From NCBI RefSeq assembly GCF_038432375.1, contig NZ_JBCAUS010000003.1, positions 186,001-250,000 of the forward strand: a stretch of 64,000 nucleotides of DNA. Direction: 5' to 3'. Below the pieces are notes generated by a model. The model searched no databases. It saw only the letters and a list, made by a program, of their open reading frames with translations, and was not told the DNA's origin. Made by a program: the position numbers and the translations under genes. Shown here piece after piece: positions 24,299 through 39,177 of this stretch. The first letter of the stretch is position 1; the number at the start of each line of letters is the position of its first letter. The stretch is from Methanococcoides sp. LMO-2. Lineage in GTDB: Archaea > Halobacteriota > Methanosarcinia > Methanosarcinales > Methanosarcinaceae.

Positions 24299-25069
24299 TC
24301 AGTTGTTCATATCCATGGGAATCAGAAATGAACTTGCCTGCTCGTCCAGGCCAATGCGTTCAGCTATCCTGTAAACACAATCTCTGTCACATTGTGCATT
24401 GTATGGGGTATACTGACACTGGACATTCGTATTACATTCATTTATCCAGTTGATCCCGAACATTTCGGACAGGTACTTCATGCCTTCCCTCAGAGAGATA
24501 CGGGTAGCCTTTTTACAGCATCTTGCTCCGCCTGCATCCGCAATTGCTTCCAGTGACCTCGAAGTTCCCCTGTTTGCATGTGAACGCTCTTCCGGAGTCA
24601 ATGGTGTAGCATCCAGCAGGACACTTATTGCAATTCCTGCACCGATTCCTCCACCACATGCTCCCTGGTAACCACAGAAACCGCCTGCAACCTTTTGTCC
24701 TCTGCTGATACCTTTGACGATCTTGGTATAATCCTTCTGTCCTACGTAGTTCATGTAAGCAGTTATGAGGGCAGCAGGTACGAGTGAATGATGTTCAGGG
24801 CCATGCATTGGCATTTTCGGATGTGCCATGATCTTTTCCGCAATAAGGATCGGGTTTTTCAGATTCGTGCTCATGCAAACACTTTCAATGATCTCCAGTG
24901 CGTCTGCACTATGACATTTGTCACACACGTAATGTGCGCTTTCACAGCACATGTAGGTATCTTCTTCGGCTCCGCAGTAGTAGCATTTTGCTTTGCATGT
25001 ATGGTCATGGTAGCTAATGTCATTACCGCAGACCATACAATTCGTTGTTCCTTTTGGTATTGCATCCAT
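24299..25069 (-). CDS. DUF5714 Cys-rich protein (C-GCAxxG-C-C-like)
   Basis: 256-aa protein. The N-terminal 60 residues form a dense Cys/His zinc domain (CMVCGNDI, CKAKCYYCGAEEDTYMCCES, CDKCHS). The core has GFCGYQGACGGGIGAGIAIS and GGARCCKKATRIS, which together resemble the C-x-GAC...CC signature of the C_GCAxxG_C_C group; such Cys sets often hold an Fe-S cluster or act in redox or corrinoid chemistry. The C-terminus has a further Cys set (NECNTNVQCQ, QCDRDCVYRIAE). The start is ATG 25069 with AAGGTGAT upstream, and the frame's extension to 25141 is not used. It is the last gene of the minus-strand operon, 17 nt after the SDR. Function unknown. Confidence 0.75.
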   Translation of the reverse strand: MDAIPKGTTNCMVCGNDISYHDHTCKAKCYYCGAEEDTYMCCESAHYVCDKCHSADALEIIESVCMSTNLKNPILIAEKIMAHPKMPMHGPEHHSLVPAALITAYMNYVGQKDYTKIVKGISRGQKVAGGFCGYQGACGGGIGAGIAISVLLDATPLTPEERSHANRGTSRSLEAIADAGGARCCKKATRISLREGMKYLSEMFGINWINECNTNVQCQYTPYNAQCDRDCVYRIAERIGLDEQASSFLIPMDMNN

Positions 25070-25086
25070 TTTAATCACCTTCTTTC

Positions 25087-25935
25087 TTAAATTTGCGAAT
25101 TTTTTTCTCTTAGTTGAGAACGTGAAAATATTACCAGCCATTTCGTAGGCAGTCTCTTTACGAGCTTATGCGTCAGATCAAGAACACGACCAGGAATGAC
25201 CATATCCTTCTTTTTCTGCATCGCACGATAGGTCTCAAGTGCGACCTTTTCAGGTGTTGTGGCCATCCACGAACTGAATGTGTTCGTATTCTCCATCCGG
25301 GCAGCTTTCTGGAATCCGGTGCCTTTGACCGCAGTAGGACAGACTGCCATTACATGTACATTGGAACCCAGCTCCCGAAGTTCGTAGTTCAGGCTCCTGC
25401 TGAATTGAAGAATGAAACTCTTGCTGGCCCCATATGTAGTAAAATAAGGATTGGGCTGGAAGGCTGAGATCGAAGCCATATTTATGATCTGGCCCTCATC
25501 ACGCTCCAGCATGTCCTTAAGGTAAAGACGCGTGAGGTCATAGAGCGTAAGTACATGAAGATGAAGCATGTCGTGTTCATGCTGGCTGTCTATATCGTTT
25601 ATGAATCCGTAGGTTCCAAATCCGGCACAGTTAACCAGTACATCGACATGGGAGCAATGCTCCTTTGAAAATGAATATACCTCCCGCGCACATCCTGACC
25701 TGGAAAGGTCAACGGATCTCACCATAATTCGCGTTCCAGGATAAATCTCCTGCAGAAGCTTACGGGCATTGAGCAGTTCATCTTCCGGTTTAGCTACAAG
25801 GAGCAACTGATAACCATTTTCTGCGAACAATTTTGCCAGCTCGAAACCTATGCCACTTGATCCGCCTGTTATGAGAGCCGTTCTTTCATGGTGATCAGCT
25901 TCCAGTTCATTGTTGTCATTGTACAGGCTTTCCAT
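25087..25935 (-). CDS. Short-chain dehydrogenase/reductase
   Basis: 282-aa NAD(P)-dependent oxidoreductase of the classical SDR type. The cofactor motif TGGSSGIGFELAKLF, the NCAGFGTYG motif (Asn-Ala-Gly), and the catalytic Ser ... YGASKSF (Tyr-x-x-x-Lys) are complete. The C-terminus is basic and partly hydrophobic (HKLVKRLPTKWLVIFSRSQ), so membrane association is possible. A start at 25935 overlaps the aldehyde dehydrogenase stop by a few bases (GTGATC then ATG), so the two are translationally coupled. Such SDRs reduce aldehydes or ketones; with a class 3-like ALDH beside it, a long-chain aldehyde, alcohol and acid interconversion is plausible. Confidence 0.85.
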   Translation of the reverse strand: MESLYNDNNELEADHHERTALITGGSSGIGFELAKLFAENGYQLLLVAKPEDELLNARKLLQEIYPGTRIMVRSVDLSRSGCAREVYSFSKEHCSHVDVLVNCAGFGTYGFINDIDSQHEHDMLHLHVLTLYDLTRLYLKDMLERDEGQIINMASISAFQPNPYFTTYGASKSFILQFSRSLNYELRELGSNVHVMAVCPTAVKGTGFQKAARMENTNTFSSWMATTPEKVALETYRAMQKKKDMVIPGRVLDLTHKLVKRLPTKWLVIFSRSQLREKNSQI

Positions 25936-25940
25936 GTTGA

Positions 25941-27356
25941 TCACATCCACCTGTAGATCATTCTGAAAATCTTCCGGATGTTTTCCGTATAAGGCGGATA
26001 CAACATACCCATTGAACCCCACGTACGTTGCATCACAGCCCGCTCATTGGAAAAACCCACAAACCCGTGGAAGCCCAGTGACTTTCCGATACCACTGCTG
26101 TTTATACCTCCAAAAGGTAAGTGAGGGTTGCTATAACTGAGCATATAATCATTGGTAAGAGTGCTTCCTGAGGGAATGCTGTCAATGAAATAATCGATAT
26201 TGCCCTGATTCTCACTGGCAATGTACAGGATCAGTGGTGATGGGTTCTGCTCGATGACAGGGATAACATCTTCCCTGTTCCTGTATGTGATCATTGGAAG
26301 CAGGGGACCAAATATCTCCTCCTGCATTATCTTCATATCAGCGGAAACGTTTTCCAGCAAGGTAGGAGCTATGTAAAGATCGGAATCATCGAAATCGCCA
26401 CCATACAACACCCGAGCATCCTTTTCACATGCATCATTATAGAGATTCAGAAGCCTGTTGTAGTGATGATCGTTGATGATGCGACAGTAATCCGGGGAAT
26501 TCCGTATGCCTTCTCCCGACGGATCATAAAGCTGCTCCATTGCTTTTCCAAACTCAGTTACAAAACAATTCCTTGAAGACTCATGTACAATGAGATAATC
26601 AGGTGCAATGCACGCCTGGCCGTTGTTGATGAACTTTGCCCATGCAAGATTTTTTGCTATTTTCCTTACATTTGCTGTTTCATCTATGATTGCAGGTGAT
26701 TTGCCACCCAATTCCAGAGTAACACTGGATAAATGTTGAGCAGCCCTTGACATTATCTCTTTTCCGACACGTGGACTGCCTGTAAAGAATATATGATTGA
26801 AAGGAAAGTCAAGCAGTTTTTTTGCGACTGATTCATCCCCTTCGAAAACTGCAACCTAGCTCTCGTCAAACAGTTCATACACCATCAACGAGATGTAAGC
26901 TGAAGTCTTAGCAGCCATTTCGCTGGGCTTCAGTATAACTGCATTCCCGGCTGCAATGGCATAGACAAGAGGAACAAGAGTCAGGTTGAACGGGAAGTTC
27001 CAGGGTGCTATGATAAGGACAACGCCTTTTGGTTCATACCTAATGTGAGATCTTGTTCCCATAAGTGGAAGTGGTGTTGGTACTTTCCTGTCCTTCATCC
27101 ATTTGTGAAGGTTTCGTTTTACATGATTGATATGTGCCTGTACTATGCCTACCTCTGTAGCTATGACCTCGGCCTCAGGTTTGCGAAGATCATGGTACAT
27201 TGCTTCATAAAGATCGTTCAGGCGCTCCTCATCCTGAAGATAGCTCTCAATGCGCCTGATACGTTCCAGTCGTTCCTCTGCATTTGCCTGTGCAAGATTA
27301 GGCACATTCTTCTTCTGGATCTCAAAGACCTGCTGGATCTCCAAACACATATTCAT
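25941..27356 (-). CDS. Class 3-like aldehyde dehydrogenase with in-frame UAG (probable pyrrolysine)
   Basis: 471-codon NAD(P)-dependent aldehyde dehydrogenase, 27356 to 25941, broken only by TAG at 26858-26856 (codon 167 from 27356). Before it: LVPLVYAIAAGNAVILKPSE and IIAPWNFPFNLTL. After it, in the same frame without further stops: VAVFEGDESVAKKLL, HIFFTGSPRVGKEI, VTLELGGKSPAII, the catalytic Cys in NNGQACIAP, and EIFGPLLPM. All active-site motifs are intact, so decay is unlikely. In homologues the amber position is variable, often Tyr or Leu in this loop. I infer UAG is read as pyrrolysine. ATG 27350 with TGAGGA upstream is an alternative start. It lies 25 nt after the membrane-protein gene and overlaps the SDR gene. 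Confidence 0.88.
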
Positions 27357-27381
27357 TCCTCACATAAGGAAAATAAAGTGC

Positions 27382-28245
27382 TCAGACTGCACTGAGCCCA
27401 AGCAAAGATAGAGTATAGAAAGATGTCAGCAAAAATGCGGCAGTAGCCTCTCTTTTTGTCCACTCTTTCTGTCCGTTGACAAATCCTTTTAGTGCAGATA
27501 TACAACCTATCAAGCGTTCACTTCCATTATGGAGCCCTTTCCTTGCTTCTCTAATCTCGGCAAGTGACAGGCATATCCAGAGAAGGAATACATAGCCTGC
27601 CATAAGGGAAAGCAATGAAAAGGTCGGGTGTGACCATGTTCCAAGTGTTTCTCCTGCAGTTTCTGTAAGAACCGTAAAGAATCCTGTAAAGTATGCAAGC
27701 CTTAACAGGTTGAAGTTCCTGAATAGCATGAACACGATTCCGAATTTGACCGCTGTGATCAGGGGTTCTTTTGCCAGGTCAAAGTACCTGTAGTCTGCCA
27801 GTATGAGCAAAACAAAGCTCAGAATGACAAAGTGGTTTACATAATGGAACCAGCCTGCTTTTGAATAGTGATCTTCGAATATCTTCCATAAATTGTGGGC
27901 TGACCAGAATATTGTTCCATATCCGGGCAATATCCAGATCGGGACATTTCCAATTGCACCTCCCAGGTATGTGAAATATCCGTATTGAACACCCAGAAGC
28001 TCATGGATATAACCAAAAACGGAAGCAATAATCAGGAATATTTTCCCTTCCGTCTGGCTGTTCTTCCAGAAAAGGATCCATAATGCAGATAGTATGATCG
28101 CAGGAGCAATCTCATCTTTTGTCTGTATGTAATATGTAAGAACTCCAAATATTGTAAAGAGCATGAACAGACAAAAGTACAATGGAGTGTTGACAAGTAT
28201 TCTGCTTTTGTTCTCAATATCTTTTAAGGGGATCAATCCGCTCAT
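27382..28245 (-). CDS. Polytopic membrane protein, DUF817- or carotenoid-biosynthesis-like
   Basis: 287-aa integral membrane protein with about eight hydrophobic helices (LYFCLFMLFTIFGVLTYYI, AIILSALWILFW, FVILSFVLLILADY, LAYFTGFFTVLTETAG). Conserved-looking polar motifs lie near helices: HELLGVQYGYFTYLG, WSAHNLWKIFEDH and ETLGTWSHPTFSL. The last resembles DUF817 or the CruF/carotenoid-hydratase-like fold; I am not sure. AAGGAG precedes ATG 28245. It begins the tight gene string membrane protein-ALDH-SDR-DUF5714, about 195 nt and one hairpin downstream of the corrinoid gene. A hydrophobic substrate such as an isoprenoid or lipid would fit. Confidence 0.65.
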   Translation of the reverse strand: MSGLIPLKDIENKSRILVNTPLYFCLFMLFTIFGVLTYYIQTKDEIAPAIILSALWILFWKNSQTEGKIFLIIASVFGYIHELLGVQYGYFTYLGGAIGNVPIWILPGYGTIFWSAHNLWKIFEDHYSKAGWFHYVNHFVILSFVLLILADYRYFDLAKEPLITAVKFGIVFMLFRNFNLLRLAYFTGFFTVLTETAGETLGTWSHPTFSLLSLMAGYVFLLWICLSLAEIREARKGLHNGSERLIGCISALKGFVNGQKEWTKREATAAFLLTSFYTLSLLGLSAV

Positions 28246-28378
28246 AAACAGAACTCCTTGGTTTTACACCGATGATTTTTATTTCGTTTTTAGTTCCAAA
28301 ACTGTGAGAACTTCAAAAAGACCATCTTTTAGGTTTTTAAATCGTGCTGTGACCTTAAAGGGGGAAGGGAGGAGTTGT

Positions 28379-28402
28379 CAGGCAGTGGCATAAGACTGCC
28401 TG
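28379..28402 (-). terminator. Intercistronic hairpin after the corrinoid gene
   Basis: Perfect 8-bp arms CAGGCAGT/ACTGCCTG with an 8-nt loop; GGGA/TCCC pairing may extend the stem. It lies between the corrinoid gene (stop 28441) and the membrane-protein gene (start 28245). It could end or attenuate the corrinoid transcript so that this abundant protein is made in excess. Confidence 0.55.
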
Positions 28403-28440
28403 ATGGTCCCTCTTCAGGTGTTACTTTTTGACAAAAGACC

Positions 28441-29106
28441 TTAATTCCATCTGTTGTCTGAAAGGTCAACGAGCAATTCTTTTGCTAACCTTGCAGCTTC
28501 CATGGCATCAGTTGCAGTTCCGTCTGCTCCGACCTCATCTGCAAAGGCCTTGGTTACTGGTGCACCACCGATCAAGATCTTCACTTTGTCCCTGATACCC
28601 TGGTCATGGATGTGTTTGATAGTTGCTTCCATGTTGTCCATTGTTGAGGTCATCAGTGTGCTCAAAGAGATGATATCTGCCTGGTGCTCGACAGCTGCAT
28701 CTGCAAAATCGTTGATCTCTACATCCTTTCCAAGGTCGATAGCCTCAAATCCGTTTGCAGTAAGCATGGTCTTTACAAGGTTCTTCCCGATGTCGTGGAC
28801 GTCTCCTTCTACTGATCCGATAATAGCTACTGCGGATTTTTCTCCATCTTCCTTCTTGAGATGTGGTGTAAGGATGTTCATCCCACCATACATTGCGTTT
28901 GAAGCCATCATGAGCTGTGGCATGTATGCTTCTTTGTTGTCGTATTTCACACCCATGATCTCCATACCCTTTGCCAGTCCGTCAATGACTGCAACGTATG
29001 GGTCGATGCCAAGTTCGAGTGCCTTTTCTGCATAAGCGGTAGCATCATCCTTGTTACCGGTTACAACTGCTTCTGTAAGATTACTGATTACATCATTTTG
29101 TTCCAT
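28441..29106 (-). CDS. Corrinoid (B12-binding) protein of a methyltransferase system
   Basis: 221-aa two-domain protein of the MtaC/MtbC/MttC type. Residues 1-88 form the helical cap domain (KALELGIDPYVAVIDGLAKGM). Then the Rossmann cobalamin domain shows the base-off ligand motif GDVHDIGKNLV (Asp102, His104, Gly107), ISLSTLMTSTMDNM and ILIGGAPVTKAFADEVGAD. His104 should be the lower cobalt ligand carrying the methyl group between enzymes. The start is ATG 29106 after GGAGGC; the frame extends to 29163 without a ribosome site. The promoter is the near-twin of that of the UroD methyltransferase, the strongest evidence that the two are partners. No MtaB, MtmB, MtbB or MttB-type gene is adjacent. 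Confidence 0.95.
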   Translation of the reverse strand: MEQNDVISNLTEAVVTGNKDDATAYAEKALELGIDPYVAVIDGLAKGMEIMGVKYDNKEAYMPQLMMASNAMYGGMNILTPHLKKEDGEKSAVAIIGSVEGDVHDIGKNLVKTMLTANGFEAIDLGKDVEINDFADAAVEHQADIISLSTLMTSTMDNMEATIKHIHDQGIRDKVKILIGGAPVTKAFADEVGADGTATDAMEAARLAKELLVDLSDNRWN

Positions 29107-29214
29107 AGTATGCCTCCTTCGTTCTGGTGGCCAGTGAGTGGTGTGTATGTCCATAAATAACATCCATGACCACCAGGATCCATAGTATCAATGAACTGAT
29201 CATTGGAGATCCGT

Positions 29215-29401
29215 TATTGACTAATAATCAGTATCCGAGTTAAGATACTTATAACGATTTCATACAAAAAATCGCTATCAGAAGTAATATCGAAGGCATA
29301 TTTCCCAGTTGGGTCGTAGTTCTGAAAGAGTCCTTGTTCAGGAACAAAACCATGTCCGAAAAAAAGGCAGGGTAAAAAAATAATGGCATTGATAATATCA
29401 A
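29215..29401 (-). promoter_or_regulatory. Duplicated promoter block upstream of the corrinoid gene
   Basis: Reverse-complement twin of 18653-18840 (187 bp). It contains palindrome TTGATAATATCAA (29389-29401, flanked by AATGGC/AACCATT so that the dyad extends to 29382-29408), TATA-like TTATAAGTA (29254-29246) and a perfect dyad AGTATC-N8-GATACT (29230-29249) just downstream of the TATA. The start should be near 29222, giving a leader of about 115 nt before ATG 29106. The leader itself is not conserved with the other promoter, so the shared block is for control of initiation. Confidence 0.75.
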
Positions 29402-29522
29402 AACCATTGTTTTTAGCACGGCTGAAAATAATGGGAGTTTGCTGAAATGAGGTCAGCCATGCCTTTTTATATGCTTTTATAAGAATGTAATAACAAATAC
29501 TAAAATGAAATGCTGGTTGTCA
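29402..29522. other. Spacer between the regulator gene and the corrinoid promoter
   Basis: About 120 bases with AT-rich sequence (TTTTTATATGCTTTTATAAG, 29464-29483). It receives the end of the regulator transcript and lies upstream of the corrinoid promoter. No gene seen. Confidence 0.4.
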
Positions 29523-30314
29523 TCAGTCTGATTTTTTGACTTCTTCTGCGATTCCCTTGTAATACTCAAAAAGTTCTTTACCCCATGAAAGCGCACTTTC
29601 TTCGAAACTAAGCAACTTCTTATGGTCAAATACACCTTCACTGTTGAAAAATGCGATCAATAAAAGGTTATCTGTTATCGAAAGTGCACCCAGTTTTGCT
29701 GCATCATCCTCAACAACATACAAGCTTGAGTTCTTTGATGCTATCATTTCATTGTACTGGTCCTCATACTCTTCTACAAGTCTTGTGTATACAGATCTTG
29801 TCAGGATGAGTGTAAAGTTCGTCTCTTTTCTACCCAGTTCCGCATAGTTGTAGGGACATGAAGGACAGAAATATGAATAGAACGTTGAAACGTTCTCTGC
29901 ATTCTTAAGACTCTGAAGCAACTGTTTTGGTGGTTCGAACAAATGACTAAGATCTGGTTCATGAATTATCACTTCTCCAAGATCTCCGATATTATCAAGA
30001 GCTGACTCAGGAAGGCCACTTAGATCCCTACTTTGCCAATATTCTTTGTTACTTTCCAGTACATCGAGCGTTTTTATTAAAGGAGCTATTTTTTTAAGGA
30101 CGATCTGTCCGATGTAGGTTAACTCGTAATCATCCCCTTTCTGTTCGATAAGCCCCTGTTCGAGAAGGATCTTTACCTGAGCCATTATTGCACTGGTACT
30201 GCCTTCAAGTGATTCTTTTATCCGGTCTATTGTGGTCGGACCATCCATTAACATAAGGACGATCTTTTTTCTTTTTTCGGATAAAAAAACTGTACTTACT
30301 AATTCAGATGTCAT
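29523..30314 (-). CDS. Msr-type DUF1724 winged-helix transcription regulator
   Basis: 263-aa regulator. An N-terminal ArsR-like winged helix (LMDGPTTIDRIKESLEGSTSAIMAQVKIL) is followed by the DUF1724 domain, with the family-typical EPDLSHLFEPPKQLLQSL and GALSITDNLLLIAFF. In Methanosarcina acetivorans, Msr regulators of this type control methanol and methylsulfide methyltransferase genes and can be paired with a neighbouring sensor kinase (MsmS/MsrG; established knowledge). Here it lies 416 nt upstream of the corrinoid gene in the same direction and 38 nt after a PAS-GAF kinase. GAGGGAG precedes its ATG. It is the best candidate to bind the TTGATNNNATCAA palindrome or the dyad at the TATA box. 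Two Cys in YFCPSCPY could sense redox. Confidence 0.88.
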   Translation of the reverse strand: MTSELVSTVFLSEKRKKIVLMLMDGPTTIDRIKESLEGSTSAIMAQVKILLEQGLIEQKGDDYELTYIGQIVLKKIAPLIKTLDVLESNKEYWQSRDLSGLPESALDNIGDLGEVIIHEPDLSHLFEPPKQLLQSLKNAENVSTFYSYFCPSCPYNYAELGRKETNFTLILTRSVYTRLVEEYEDQYNEMIASKNSSLYVVEDDAAKLGALSITDNLLLIAFFNSEGVFDHKKLLSFEESALSWGKELFEYYKGIAEEVKKSD

Positions 30315-30352
30315 ACAAACTCCCTCACTTTTTTATAGATAAGATTGCTGGA

Positions 30353-31996
30353 TTATATAGTTTTGTTCTTTGGCAGACTTATGATAACTGTCGTTCCCTT
30401 CCCTTCCTCACTATCGACACGTATATCCCCACCATGAGTATCGATTATGTTCTTGCAAAGATAGAACGTTGACTTCAGCTCTTCATAATCCTTGCTCAAA
30501 ACAGAAGTATCCTCATCCTGAACCTGATAGAACCTAACGAACAGGTTCGTTACAAGTGATTCCGGTATTCCAAGGCCGTTATCCTTCAGTTCAAAATAGA
30601 CAATATTATCTTCTTCAGAGACTTCAACATCAATGTTTCCGTTCTCAGGTATGAACTGTATAAGGCTTTCAATCACCCTTGTAAGTACATCTGAGATCTT
30701 ATCCTTGTCAACATTTATTGTGGTTATCTCGTCCGGTATTTTCTTGGTAAAAGATATGTTCTTCTCATCGATCCTCAATATCACATTCAGGGTAACATTA
30801 TCAATGATCGAACGTACATTCACCAAAGATGGATTATAGTTCTTCTTCTCGAACTCTTCCATGTCAATGTATAACAATGAATCAACAATGCTCTTTAGTT
30901 TTTCAGAACTTCTTATTACAGTCTCCACAGCTTTGTTCTGTTGTCTGTTCAGGGAACGGAGAGTTTCCTTCTCGATAAAGCTGCCTTCACAGATCATGGT
31001 CGGCAGGTCTTCCTTGCTGTGTACAAACTCTCTTTTTATGCTGTTCACAGACTTCAGGTCATTGTTTGCCTTTTCAAAGTCCTCAGAGAACACCTTCAAG
31101 GCATCCTCCACCTCTTTACGGAAAATTACCTTCCACATATCTTCGAAAAGAAGCTTTAACTGCTTAACATCAAAATCAGTATAATCGGTCTTTTTGTTGG
31201 CCACGCCGACGAGTGCCACGATCTTCTGCCCATCATATATTGGAACGCTCATGTGGCGGACGATCTCCATATGCCCTTCAGGATATCCGTTTTTTACCGA
31301 ACCTGAAAGATGGTTATTGAAGATCACAGGTTGGCGCTGCCTGATAGCTTCCAGGAACGAACAACTCTCTTCAACGGAATAGAGTTGTTTCTTTGTTTTT
31401 ACATTGCAGGTCGTTCCTGCTGTTTCAGACTACGAATGAACAGTGATGGTATCTTCAGACTGGTTCACCAGGGCAAAGTAACCAGCTTCGCTTCCCATCA
31501 GTTTGATACCTTCTTCAAGTATGAATTCAATGATCTCTTTGACCGAATGGGAACTCATCTGATTGAGCCTGAGAAGCGTTTCCAGTCGTGCTTCATTGAT
31601 CTGAAGGGCTTCTTCGACTTTTTTGTTCTCTGTGATATCAAAAATAATTCCCTGGATGCTTTCAATATCCCCGCGATCATTTCGTTTCATAAGTGATCTT
31701 TCATCGACCCAGCGAATCTCCCCAAATTTGGTAATAATCCGGTACTGCCGTGTGAAACCAACAAGTTTGTCCTTTTTAGAATAATCTAAAAAGTCCTCTT
31801 TTAAATGATCAATGTCATCAGGATGCACTATATCTGCATACGTTAACTTTCCATCTATGAACTCTTCCGGATCATAACCAAACTGGAGTATATTCTCTGA
31901 TACAAAATCAACATTCCAGTCCTCATCGGTATCCCAAAGGAAAATTACTGCCTGACTACTGTTTATTATTATTTCAATGTCTTCACTGCTGATCAT
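30353..31996 (-). CDS. PAS-GAF sensor kinase with in-frame UAG in the GAF domain
   Basis: 547-codon soluble sensor, interrupted only by TAG at 31432-31430 (codon 189). Order: PAS (about 1-125, AVIFLWDTDEDWNVDFVSENI), GAF (about 140-300), a degenerate dimerisation helix region (SEKLKSIVDSLLYIDMEEF) and an HATPase domain (VNVDKDKI-type N box, ELKDNGLGIPES, GKGTTVIISLPK). The amber codon lies inside the GAF domain: DTITVHS-UAG-SETAGTTCNV, where related methanogen kinases usually have Trp in the motif SWS. After it the frame runs on with QRQPVIFNNHLSG and MEIVRHMSVPIYD. The GAF Cys eight residues later recalls the haem-binding Cys of MsmS. I see no clear phospho-accepting His in the usual motif. 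It sits 38 nt upstream of the DUF1724 gene, so the two form a sensor-regulator pair. Confidence 0.85.
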
Positions 31997-32262: not shown

Positions 32263-35200
32263 CTAAGAACATCTATTATTAAGTGAAACGTTCAGTATGG
32301 AATCCCCACAACTGAAGGGATCATCGTTGGTATTGAGCAGATTGGCTTTTTCCGATACAATCGGAATCGTAAATGTAAACTTACTACCAACACCCAATTC
32401 GCTTTCAACCCAGATCTTACCACTATGAAGATTCACATATTCCTTTGCAAGCATGAGCCCCAGACCGATGCCACCATATTTACGGGTAGTTGAGCCATCC
32501 ACCTGCATGAACGGATTGAATATCCTGACACGATCTTCCTTCGAAATACCAATTCCCGTATCAACAACTGATATACGGGCATGGTCGTCCTCCCTGGTAG
32601 CATAGATCTCTACAACTCCTCCTTCAGGAGTGAATTTGATCGCATTATCTACAAGACCATGAAGAATGTCTTTGATCTTCACAGGATCAGCAAAGATCTC
32701 TGCCAATTGTGGATCAACATGTGATTCTAACAGAACGTTCTTTTTTGATGCAATTACAATGCGTGATTCCTTTACCTCAACAATGCTTTTTTGCAGGTTG
32801 AACAGATCACATTCCAGATCAGTATTTCCAGCATGGATATTGCTTATATCAAGTATGTGATTAATAAGATTCAGCAGTTCTTCCCCATGATTTTTAATTG
32901 TAAAAGCATATTTCTTCTGTTTCTCATTAAGTTCACCAGCCATCTCATTGGCCAGTATGTCTGAAAAGCCAATGATAGGGTTGAGCGGAGTCCTGAGCTC
33001 ATGACTTACATTTGCAAGGAATTCGGATTTAGTCCTGTTTGCCTCTTCGGCTGCAAGTTTGGAAGCTATCAAGGCCTGTCTGGCTTGCTTCCAGCTGCTT
33101 ATATCCCTGAGAATTGCCATGGTCGCCGGATGACCCTTATATTGGACTACAGATGCACTTACATTCACAGGAAGCAGGGCTCCAGACTTAGAGATGATCT
33201 CTATCTCATAATGGTTAGAGACTTTTTCCCCGTTCAGTCTCCTCCTGTACTTTTCCTTTATAGTATCAACATGCTTCGGAGAAACAAATTCAATAAAGGA
33301 CCTTTCAACGATTTGTTCATACGAATAGCCGGCCATTTCCTGCATCGTTCTGTTGGCAAATTTGATAGAATCACCCTGAAGGATAATTATACCATCGTTA
33401 CCATTTTCAACGATCGTTGAATACTTTTTCTCACTTTCATATAGCTTGAGCTCGGCTTTTTTGTGTTCAGTGATATCATTGATTAGACATATTGTCCTCT
33501 CATATTTACCATTGGACTTGTTGATACCGGACGAATTGATGACCACATCAATGAGAGTTCCATCTTTCTTTACCACCTTGTACTCTTCATTATAGGAAAC
33601 TCCGGTTTCAAGTATTTCCTGAAGGGATTCTAAAGCTTTATCCATATAATCCGGATGGATGATCTTTGACATTGGATTCCCAACGATCTCTTTTTTATCA
33701 TAACCCAGGACATTTTTGATCCGACTGTTGCAATCTACAATGATACCATTTTCATCAACTGATGTGATAAGATTGGCTGCAGATTCGAATATTGAGCGAT
33801 AAAGTTCTTCACTCTTATTAATTAGATCTAAATTTATTTTGTTGTTCAGCGATATTGCAAGATAATCACCGAATGTCTTGGCAAGGAGTGCATCATTTTC
33901 ATTGAAATCACCATCTTTGTAGGAAAAACCCATTAAACCCAGAGTTTTGCCTTCTATACGCAAAGGAGTGAACAGCACATTCGGAAGGTCCATATGACCT
34001 TCGGGCATATACTTTGTCCATTCACTGTTCATGAAATCATTGTGATAGACAACATTCCCCTTCTTGTATACTTCATCCCGTAATCCCCTTACGGGCATTG
34101 GCAACTCAGGATCAACGAAGCACGACATACCACCATCTTCCAGGAAAAGGACCTTATTCTCATCCCCTGTTTCCGATAGCAATGCAACATATCCGGCTTT
34201 TGCACCAATGGTCCTTGCACAGGCATCAAAGACAATCCTTGCTACTGCTTCAAAATCCTTGTTCTTCAAAATTGAATGGGCTGAATTCAGAAGTTCTGTT
34301 ATCTCATTTTCTTTCTGGGTAGAATATTTCAGTGTTTCTATAAGCTCAAATTCAGCGCTTTTGTTTTTTGTAATATCTTTCTTAAAAGTAATTATACGCT
34401 CATCAGAAAGTACCGAAGAACTCACATTCCACCATCTTTTACATCCATTCTTTGTCAAGAACTGAACATCAAGATCAATAATACCATTCTTCTTCAATTC
34501 ATTGAATTTTTTCAGCAAAAATTCATGATGTTCTACAGGAGTTATATCCAGGAAGTTCATTCCGACCAATTCATCTTCAGAGTAGCCTGTTATTCTACAT
34601 GCAGACTTATTGACCTCAATATAGTTTCCATCCAGATCGGATACAAATACAGCATCAGGTGCATTATCTATGTAATTTCTGAACTTAGCTTCACTTTCTA
34701 TCAATGATTGCTTTGCCTTTTTGCGATCAGTTATGTCCCTTGTTGTTCCCTGGAATCCTATTGGAGAGCCATCTTCATCACAAAGTACCTTCCCAACAAT
34801 CTCAACGGGAAACTCTGTACCATCCTTTCTACGAAGTACAGCCTCAAATTTCACTCCTGAAGCATCCGGCAGCCTGTCAATACCTTCCTGAATGAAATTC
34901 AAGATCGTCTGGTAATTCAGATCATCGCAGTGATCATAAACTTTAGTCCCGATGAACTCATCGGGAGTATATCCTGAAATAATATAACAAGATGGACTTA
35001 CATAAGTAAACTCCAGATCTTTATTCATGACCCATATAGCATCAAGACTGTTATGTGCAAGAAGACGATAGTTTTCCTCACTTTCTATTAAGGTATTCTC
35101 AGCTTTCTTGCGTTCAGTTATGTCAAGTGCACTGAAAGTAACTCCTTTCAATTGATCATCGGGATCTATAGGTGATGAACTAAGAATTATGTCAATGATG

Positions 35201-35889
35201 TTGCCATCTTTTCTCTTCCATTGAGTTTCTACAACTCCGGTGCCCTTTTTTTGGATCAGGGAATATTTTTCCCTTCCAACATACTCAAATTCATCATTTG
35301 TAGGATAAAGTATCCTTGCACTCTGACCAAGCAGTTCATCTCTTGAGTATCCTGTCATTTTACAAATACGGTCATTAACTTCTCTTAGGATTCGCTCCTG
35401 AACAACACCTATTCCAGCAGGTACAGCCCTGAATATGCTATCAAGACGATTTCCCCTATCACGTATTTGTTCTTCTGCAAGTTTGCGATCAGTGATATCA
35501 ATGTGCTGTAAAAGGACATTTGTAGGATAAGTTTTTGAAAGTGGTGTCACCTTCAGCAAAAACCAGCGCTTTTCATCAGGACTGTGACAGGGGTACTCTA
35601 TTTTTAATAGGCCTTTATTTCCATTTATGACATCAATTATCCCTTTTGCTATACATGAAGCTTCAATTGAGTTTTCACCTGTTGATTCATTACAAATATT
35701 CAAGTAATTTGTTCCTTCGCTGAATTTTGCAGGATAAGATCCACTATCCCCAGCAAACTGTTTCCAGCTCTGGTTTGTATAAATAATAATACCCTCAGAA
35801 GACACTATTGCAATGTTGTCTTCCCACAGATCGAAAATGCCTGAAAAGCTTAGATCGCTTTTCTAATTGTCAGAAAGGAAATCTGACAT
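32263..35889 (-). CDS. Large multi-PAS/GAF histidine kinase with amber codon 9
   Basis: About 1208-codon cytosolic histidine kinase. Domain order: PAS (FDLWEDNIAIVSSEG), three more PAS (RAVPAGIGV, NSLDAIWVMNKD, NAPDAVFVSDLDG), GAF (FDACARTIGAKAGYVALL), two PAS (SAANLITSVDENG, NGNDGIIILQ), HisKA with the complete H-box ANVSHELRTPLNP, and HATPase (DNAIKFTPEGG, DTGIGIS, GGIGLGL). The longest TAG-free frame starts at GTG 35805, inside the first PAS. Read upstream, ATG 35889 opens MSDFLSDN-UAG-KSDLSFSGIFDLWEDN, completing that PAS with only TAG (35865-35863) in the way. It also ends in TAG (32265-32263), two codons before TGA (32256-32254). No receiver domain. It probably feeds the neighbouring regulator. 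Confidence 0.85.
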
Positions 35890-37926: not shown

Positions 37927-38088
37927 GATATTACATTCTGGTTGTTGTGTGATATTCTTAACGGGAACCTTGAGATGGCAACACTAAAGATTTAAATCGA
38001 GGAGCTCTGGAAATCCAAAACTTTATTGCCACATAGACATTGAAAGTTCTTTTAATATTAAATGAATTTTTAATTGGGGTATAGGATA

Positions 38089-39177
38089 ATGAGAATTATT
38101 GTAAAGACTGGAGTGAGCATATTGATAATAGGCATTCTGCTCGTGGGATTTGCATGGGGAGGGTCGTCGGATCCTGTAAATAACGATGATAGCGAATTAG
38201 ATGATCCCGAACATACTGATGGGATCTTTGATCCAAATAACTCCAATTCCCTTTTTGAAGAGTACAAGAGTGATCCATTGTTCATAGCCAGCAGAGGAAA
38301 CTTTCCCGAAACAATCGATAGGGAGTGGAAAAATTCAGTTAATGACTGCTGGCTATCTCTTTCCATAAATCAACCGGCATACACAATTGATAGTTCTATA
38401 AGAAGCATCGCTGCCAATAGTGAATTTTTGATCGTAGATATAAGCTATGATCAGCATGGAAAAATGAATGAGTCAAGAATTGATGAGATCTATCGGAAGA
38501 TCGATGATCACTGTGAGCGTGAAGAGGGTATCAGTGGTATATCCGTGGTATTTATGTGGCCAATGGAAGATGAGAGCATACCACTTCCTGATTATGGACC
38601 GGAGATCTTTGAGGAAGCTAAAAGCAGTCCATCGTTCATAGCTGCCTACGGAACAATGCCTGTGATTACGCAGGAAAGTGAAAAAAGAAGATGGATAGAT
38701 TAGCTTGGACATACAAAAGATAGGGAACTCGACCCGTTCTTTGCTTCATCTAACGGACCTCTGATAAGTTATGGAGTGTACATCAACGGATACCTGAGTG
38801 TGGGCATGAACTCAGAAACACCTGAAAAAGTAAACGAATCCGTAATTGACGAAATATATCAGACGATAGACAAGCACTTCGAACAGGAAGCAGGTATAGA
38901 CGAAGTCCCGGTAGTATTTGAATGGGAGAGTCCTATAATCCTATGTGAAGAGGTAGTCAGTCCGCCATCATCGGATGAAGAAGATATTTGTGTGATAGAT
39001 GATGATGGAAATGTTGTAACCTATACAAGGGATGAAGCTTATTTAGATGAAGAAGGGAATCTTGTGGTCATCGATAATGGAACACCGGAGGAGATCGGGA
39101 CAGAAACCCAAACACCGGGATTCACCTCAATACTGCTCACTATCGGACTGTTATTTTCGGCAAGGCTGAGAAAGTAA
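38089..39177 (+). CDS. Exported PGF-CTERM protein with tandem domain and in-frame UAG
   Basis: 362-codon surface protein, ATG 38089 to TAA 39177, with one in-frame TAG at 38701-38703 (codon 205). Signal peptide IIVKTGVSILIIGILLVGFA, then Asp/Asn-rich linker. Two homologous domains follow: the first ends RIDEIYRKIDDHCEREEGISG, the second VIDEIYQTIDKHFEQEAGIDE, both followed by a VVF-W strand. TAG falls inside the second copy (EKRRWID-UAG-LGHTKDRELDP), opposite a normal residue of copy 1, and the frame runs on without further stops. It ends TQTPGFTSILLTIGLLFSA plus RLRK, a PGF-CTERM anchor. Signal at one end and anchor at the other make read-through essential for a surface protein. Function unknown. 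Confidence 0.78.

Follow-up and report, generated by a model that had tools for sequence, protein, structure and literature searches.

In the methylamine methyltransferases MtmB, MtbB and MttB, pyrrolysine (Pyl) is located at the active site and is conserved, as stated in the accessible sections of PMC8211752. The same sections add transposases to the list of pyrrolysine proteins, and a further case is Thg1, the tRNA-His guanylyltransferase of M. acetivorans, whose amber codon arose in this species alone and is dispensable (Rother and Krzycki, in the accessible part of PMC2933860). Pyrrolysine was observed in Thg1, the activity of the enzyme did not require it, and neutral evolution was invoked to account for its presence (passages of PMC2933860, PMC3639795 and PMC8211752, after Heinemann et al. 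2009). Neutral gain of in-frame UAG codons is also discussed in excerpts of PMC3639795, where a histidine kinase is among the candidates. According to passages of PMC2933860, UAG serves as both a sense and a stop codon in such archaea and was read with an efficiency of 20 to 30% in an M. acetivorans reporter, and excerpts of PMC3941956 describe amber as little used as a stop in the Methanosarcinaceae.

Here we describe an amber codon within an aldehyde dehydrogenase gene of Methanococcoides sp. LMO-2, located in a contiguous stretch of 64,000 nucleotides, referred to as the window; coordinates without a locus or contig label refer to it. Like Thg1, this gene encodes an enzyme outside the methylamine methyltransferases and carries an amber codon found in one species; however, the enzyme is a different one, and pyrrolysine was physically detected in Thg1, whereas here it is predicted from the gene. 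The in-frame TAG and the presence of pylTSBCD are shared with the MtmB, MtbB and MttB systems, but in our case the codon is peculiar to one species and falls in a loop of a protein with an unrelated fold. Some archaea reportedly read all TAG codons as pyrrolysine, a 'Pyl code' said to have been described by Kivenson et al. in Science in 2025, and the genome studied here resembles them in that TAG is nearly absent as a stop and occurs in frame in many unrelated genes. The gene thus adds one more predicted protein to the known cases of pyrrolysine outside the methyltransferases. It does not constitute the first of them, since Thg1 and transposases have been published (accessible sections of PMC2933860 and PMC8211752). 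For this reason, and given several more such genes in our genome sample, we do not maintain the view of the first-pass annotation that such a residue would be new outside the methylamine methyltransferases. A search of the open-licence literature yielded, among the matches listed and judged by title, no report of pyrrolysine in an aldehyde dehydrogenase, a result that we do not extend to a claim of absence from print.

An amber codon in an otherwise intact aldehyde dehydrogenase gene

The minus strand between positions 27356 and 25941 constitutes a single frame of 471 codons, and its lone internal stop is a TAG at positions 26858-26856:

25941..27356, minus strand: class-3-type aldehyde dehydrogenase (ALDH), 471 codons with TAG as residue 167, stop codon TGA
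26856..26858, minus strand: in-frame TAG, ALDH codon 167, a single-step change from the GAG (Glu) codon of the nearest relative

All four ALDH elements, FTGS, LELGGKSP, GQAC and EIFGP, are retained, and the Pfam Aldedh profile (PF00171) matches the entire length of the protein across the amber (E value of 4.8e-89), both halves forming one domain. On this point the first-pass annotation, which had reported an amber codon in an otherwise intact ALDH, was correct. In an alignment of 35 sequences, the invariant columns include N120, K143, E215, C249, Q345-E346-E347-I348-F349 and P351. We take C249, E215 and N120 to be the catalytic cysteine, the general-base glutamate and the oxyanion asparagine, respectively, as established for ALDHs. 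With a full-length Aldedh domain and all three of these residues, the protein has the hallmarks of a class 3 (ALDH3-like) enzyme. Its closest matches in sequence and in fold are class 3 ALDHs as well (TM 0.88-0.93 at ranks 1-14), headed by AldH of Staphylococcus aureus (6k0z, 6k10). The fold and the catalytic elements are common to S. aureus AldH (39-40% identity), ALDH3A1 and FALDH; in contrast, at the position of the amber the sequence alignment shows Tyr for 6k0z and Leu for 1ad3, while Pyl is predicted in our enzyme.

The structure of the read-through protein was predicted by AlphaFold2 from the alignment of 35 sequences, with Lys in place of the amber residue. The resulting model revealed an intact fold with a mean pLDDT of 93.9 and positioned residue 167 in a loop that connects helix 146-162 with strand 168-170. 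Residue 167 is distant in sequence from N120, E215 and C249, and its loop appears to be situated away from the catalytic residues.

A nearly invariant glutamate at the amber position in relatives

ALDH homologues were detected, at the cut-off used, in 26 of the 111 genomes of the family, and only in LMO-2 does the gene contain an internal stop. At the amber column, the nearest sampled relative (G019, 92% identity) carries GAG and the next species (G020, 83%) carries GAA, 22 further close relatives have either GAA or GAG, and the distant locus L027 (37%) has TAT, encoding Tyr. Hence, the codon is a sense codon in all 25 relatives from the Methanosarcinaceae and specifies Glu in 24 of them. Among 46 further homologues, which are mostly bacterial and include one row that duplicates a family genome, 39 have Glu at this column and four have Asp. 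The first-pass annotation had proposed an alignment of orthologues as a check on which residue occupies this site and whether TAG recurs; the answer is Glu almost throughout, and TAG does not recur. For neutral cases of pyrrolysine, such as Thg1, conservation of the UAG among orthologues is no prerequisite.

It had also placed the amber in a variable surface loop. The loop is supported by the AlphaFold2 model, but variability is a property of residues 164-166, which immediately precede the amber and differ among homologues. Position 167 itself can no longer be regarded as variable, its column being almost invariably Glu in the family and either Glu or Asp in 43 of the 46 other sequences. The pattern among relatives, from which the direction of the change is deduced, indicates that a single base change from GAG to TAG replaced this near-invariant Glu after the split from G019. 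Loss of so strongly conserved a residue may be harmful to the enzyme.

A single-base difference found in one assembly might alternatively reflect an error of sequencing or assembly, the real codon being GAG. However, the assembly in question (2.31 Mb in 14 contigs) is 99.9% complete and 0.04% contaminated, and other in-frame TAG codons of this genome are backed by relatives; we consider such an error very improbable.

UAG is almost certainly a sense codon in this genome

The RuBisCO of this genome is close to PDB entry 5mac, from Methanococcoides burtonii, which points to the same genus. The pylT, pylS, pylB, pylC and pylD genes of LMO-2 are located together on contig C6, where the tRNA-Pyl(CUA) gene lies just before PylS and is followed by PylB and by the pylC and pylD ORFs. 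PylB was recognized as an NCBIfam equivalog, whereas pylC and pylD were named from gene order and length; with this basis for the latter two, the genome encodes the tRNA-Pyl(CUA), PylS and PylBCD set on which a pyrrolysine protein depends. Among 593 called genes (644 kb including the window, 28% of the genome), 334 ended with TGA, 247 with TAA and 12 with TAG. Trinucleotide counts of 15778 for TAA, 29038 for TGA and 9013 for TAG would lead one to expect TAG at about 17% of stops, and the codon is far rarer than that. Similarly, TAG terminated four of 270 called genes in the nearest relative, G019.

Ten genes on 400 kb of contig C6 and in the window ended with TAG, and in seven of these the coding score remained positive for at least 45 codons past it. 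The exceptions are pylB, an 80-codon ORF and the gene at 32263-35805, in which TGA follows two codons later. Genes with internal TAG codons include MtbB (codon 356), ALDH, a histidine kinase described below and three additional genes; TAG codons close to the N terminus, probably mostly artefacts of start-site assignment, were left out of this count. The three additional genes are:

Locus L128, 12469-13914, plus strand: YjeF-type NAD(P)H-hydrate enzyme, in-frame TAG at codon 335
Locus L112, 16551-17723, minus strand: FrhB-like protein, in-frame TAG at codon 345
Locus L146, 16696-17691, minus strand: CcmF-like protein, in-frame TAG at codon 181, common to G019

The comparison with G019 comprised 217 gene pairs and 67,498 aligned residues. 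It was performed on called genes in place of all open frames, because shadow frames had swamped the comparison of TAG codons in the latter. In the CcmF-like gene, omega was 0.079 before the shared TAG and 0.101 behind it. Two genes in the window also carry TAG codons that are shared with relatives:

30353..31996, minus strand: PAS/GAF histidine kinase, in-frame TAG at residue 189, common to three species
38074..39177, plus strand: hypothetical protein without a family match, TAG at residue 210, common to the nearest relative

The best local evidence for a sense TAG is provided by the kinase, which has the identical codon in LMO-2 (G000), G019 and G020. Omega of this gene was 0.123 before TAG 189 and 0.126 behind it in the comparison with G019, and 0.090 and 0.095, respectively, in the comparison with G020, at dS values of 1.0 and 1.4. 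For the hypothetical protein, the corresponding omega values were 0.289 and 0.346. If translation ended at these shared TAG codons, the sequence behind them should drift; since it is similarly constrained, UAG is read here as sense, and we regard this conclusion as nearly certain.

Three TAG codons of LMO-2 were absent from G019, namely, those of ALDH, of a 91-codon ORF and of a small methyltransferase, in which codon 161 encodes Asp in G019 and omega was 0.146 before the TAG and 0.283 behind it. Conversely, two TAG codons were specific to G019, one of which falls within the segment overlapping the end of ALDH, before the likely start of the downstream short-chain dehydrogenase/reductase (SDR) gene. 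Species-private internal stops of LMO-2 in this two-genome comparison comprised two TAG, one TGA and no TAA codons, numbers so tiny that the count alone does not separate tolerated TAG codons from chance nonsense mutations.

Selection on ALDH and the most likely reading of its amber codon

Between LMO-2 and G019, omega of the ALDH gene was 0.134 before the TAG and 0.081 behind it; the coding sequence is thus conserved on both sides of the in-frame UAG, as expected of a pyrrolysine protein. Changes assigned to the LMO-2 branch behind the TAG were synonymous in 17 cases and nonsynonymous in 11, while the numbers of sites alone (198 to 714) predict the reverse. No further frame damage or disabling change was found in the 471 codons, and the gene shows neither the accumulated lesions nor, at 17 synonymous to 11 nonsynonymous changes, the relaxed selection of a pseudogene. 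Of the sites conserved in at least 95% of relatives, 167 is the sole one altered in the ALDH of LMO-2 alone, and a second departure at such a position is common to LMO-2 and G019. As the TAG occurs in one species only, these figures mostly reflect selection before the mutation and do not prove read-through at codon 167; moreover, the TAG may be young, and for this reason they exclude old decay and not recent decay.

A recent nonsense-like lesion, at which most ribosomes stop and with which the decay of a dispensable accessory enzyme begins, has therefore to be weighed. The ALDH gene was found in three of the 11 genomes of the genus and is missing from eight, indicating that the enzyme is dispensable within the genus, and both the loss of a nearly invariant Glu and the restriction of the change to one species would fit incipient decay. 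On the other hand, the frame carries no other damage, 167 is the only highly conserved site altered in this gene alone, synonymous changes outnumber nonsynonymous ones behind the TAG on the LMO-2 branch, and TAG is a sense codon in neighbouring genes. Taken with this evidence, decay appears unlikely.

The ALDH is most likely produced at full length with Pyl167 as a tolerated change, an explanation that, as a whole, we hold to be probable. In this methanogen of the Methanosarcinaceae, UAG would be read by tRNA-Pyl as a sense codon, and, in the gene of a functional ALDH3-type enzyme with an accessory role, the GAG codon for Glu167 would have mutated to TAG after the split from the nearest sampled relative. 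With UAG decoded by tRNA-Pyl, such a mutation would be missense, exchanging Glu for Pyl, rather than nonsense. A full-length ALDH with Pyl167 would then be made, the substitution in the loop would be tolerated or mildly costly, and the SDR encoded behind ALDH would still be translated. A mild cost is plausible, since the replaced Glu is conserved, and much truncated product may accompany the full-length enzyme, given the reading efficiency of UAG in the M. acetivorans reporter. A full-length ALDH is likely, and the exchange of Glu167 for Pyl is probably near-neutral; the ALDH mRNA would be read through efficiently, pyrrolysine would be the inserted residue and the enzyme would presumably work. 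The first-pass annotation had left the choice between a functional residue and a merely tolerated substitution, and the second is the better option. The pyl genes, the purging of TAG from stops and the selection behind shared TAG codons render it very probable that this TAG is read as pyrrolysine.

Reassignment of a stop codon thus turns a would-be nonsense mutation into a missense one, here striking a conserved residue. Under the standard code, such genes look like two fragments or a pseudogene, and the proteomes of methanogens of this kind are easily under-counted as a result. The case is valuable chiefly for its genome, in which one can examine how far UAG has become a sense codon in an archaeon; the ALDH alone offers no new chemistry.

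ALDH belongs to a predicted aldehyde-handling module

The ALDH gene is part of a same-strand run of genes, listed here with a nearby corrinoid-protein gene:

27382..28245, minus strand: gene for a membrane protein without a Pfam family, immediately upstream of ALDH and a conserved partner of it
25087..25935, minus strand: SDR, conserved ALDH partner
24299..25141, minus strand: DUF5714 protein, last gene of the run
28441..29163, minus strand: corrinoid protein resembling MtbC, scoring below the TIGR02370 family cut-off

The end of the membrane-protein gene is separated from the ALDH start by 25 bases, and five bases separate the ALDH stop from the SDR start codon. Genes for the membrane protein and the SDR flank ALDH in all 25 close loci (L002-L026, LMO-2 included), and the DUF5714 gene follows the module in 21 of the 25; neither the membrane-protein nor the SDR gene was found beside the ALDH of the distant locus L027. 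Extra copies of the membrane-protein gene also occur without ALDH. The module of membrane protein, ALDH and SDR, with or without DUF5714 (24299-28245 of the window, minus strand), is conserved in the Methanosarcinaceae.

The first-pass annotation had assigned ALDH to a possible new methyl-transfer locus. The corrinoid gene was seen beside the module in LMO-2, G019 and G020 only, with flanks of 1.5 kb that are possibly too short elsewhere, and no methyltransferase gene adjoins it among the genes examined (24299-31996). Nor does the ALDH gene itself belong with MtmB, MtbB or MttB, as it matches the ALDH family and no methyltransferase family. Because the module is conserved in 25 of 25 loci and the corrinoid gene was seen within these flanks in three species of the genus only, ALDH is best seen as a member of a predicted aldehyde-handling module composed of the membrane protein, ALDH and SDR, and not as a methyl-transfer enzyme. 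A new methyl-transfer locus was accordingly discarded for ALDH, which travels with the membrane-protein and SDR genes.

A special role for Pyl167 is unlikely. The residue could be adaptive if its reactive imine ring, or the lost negative charge, endowed ALDH with a new property, such as a different substrate or partner or a Pyl-dependent control of its level. That the replaced residue is conserved and not variable would fit such a scenario, as would the proximity of a methyltransferase-type corrinoid gene and of a kinase with a conserved TAG, and truncation at the UAG would presumably couple the ALDH level to the Pyl supply. However, the change is found in one species, the nearest relatives with the same cluster have Glu, the site is in a loop distant in sequence from N120, E215 and C249, and a one-base step from GAG to TAG requires no selection, so that adaptation is highly improbable. 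Function in the wider sense, in which Pyl167 alters the partner or substrate chemistry of ALDH or in which the UAG ties the amounts of ALDH and of the coupled SDR to the pyrrolysine supply, strikes us as very improbable; if true, it would place an aldehyde-oxidising module under the control of growth on methylamine.

TAG codons of the kinase and pylB genes

Compared with ALDH, the PAS/GAF histidine kinase, whose gene is located close to that of the corrinoid protein, is the stronger candidate for a selected or functional pyrrolysine. Its TAG 189 takes the place of a Trp codon (TGG) that is kept, within an HSWS-like motif, in eight paralogous loci.

The stop codon of pylB is itself a TAG, situated one base before the start of pylC in all 11 genomes of the genus (L119:13161-13163, corresponding to C6:213161-213163, and loci L165-L175). 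A TAG at the same place in M. burtonii, M. mazei and M. acetivorans is noted in the accessible part of PMC2933860. The codon has been kept even though TAG terminates only about 2% of the genes called in the sampled genome, and its read-through would add 42 residues to PylB. A feedback of pyrrolysine on its own pathway is one possible explanation of this arrangement.
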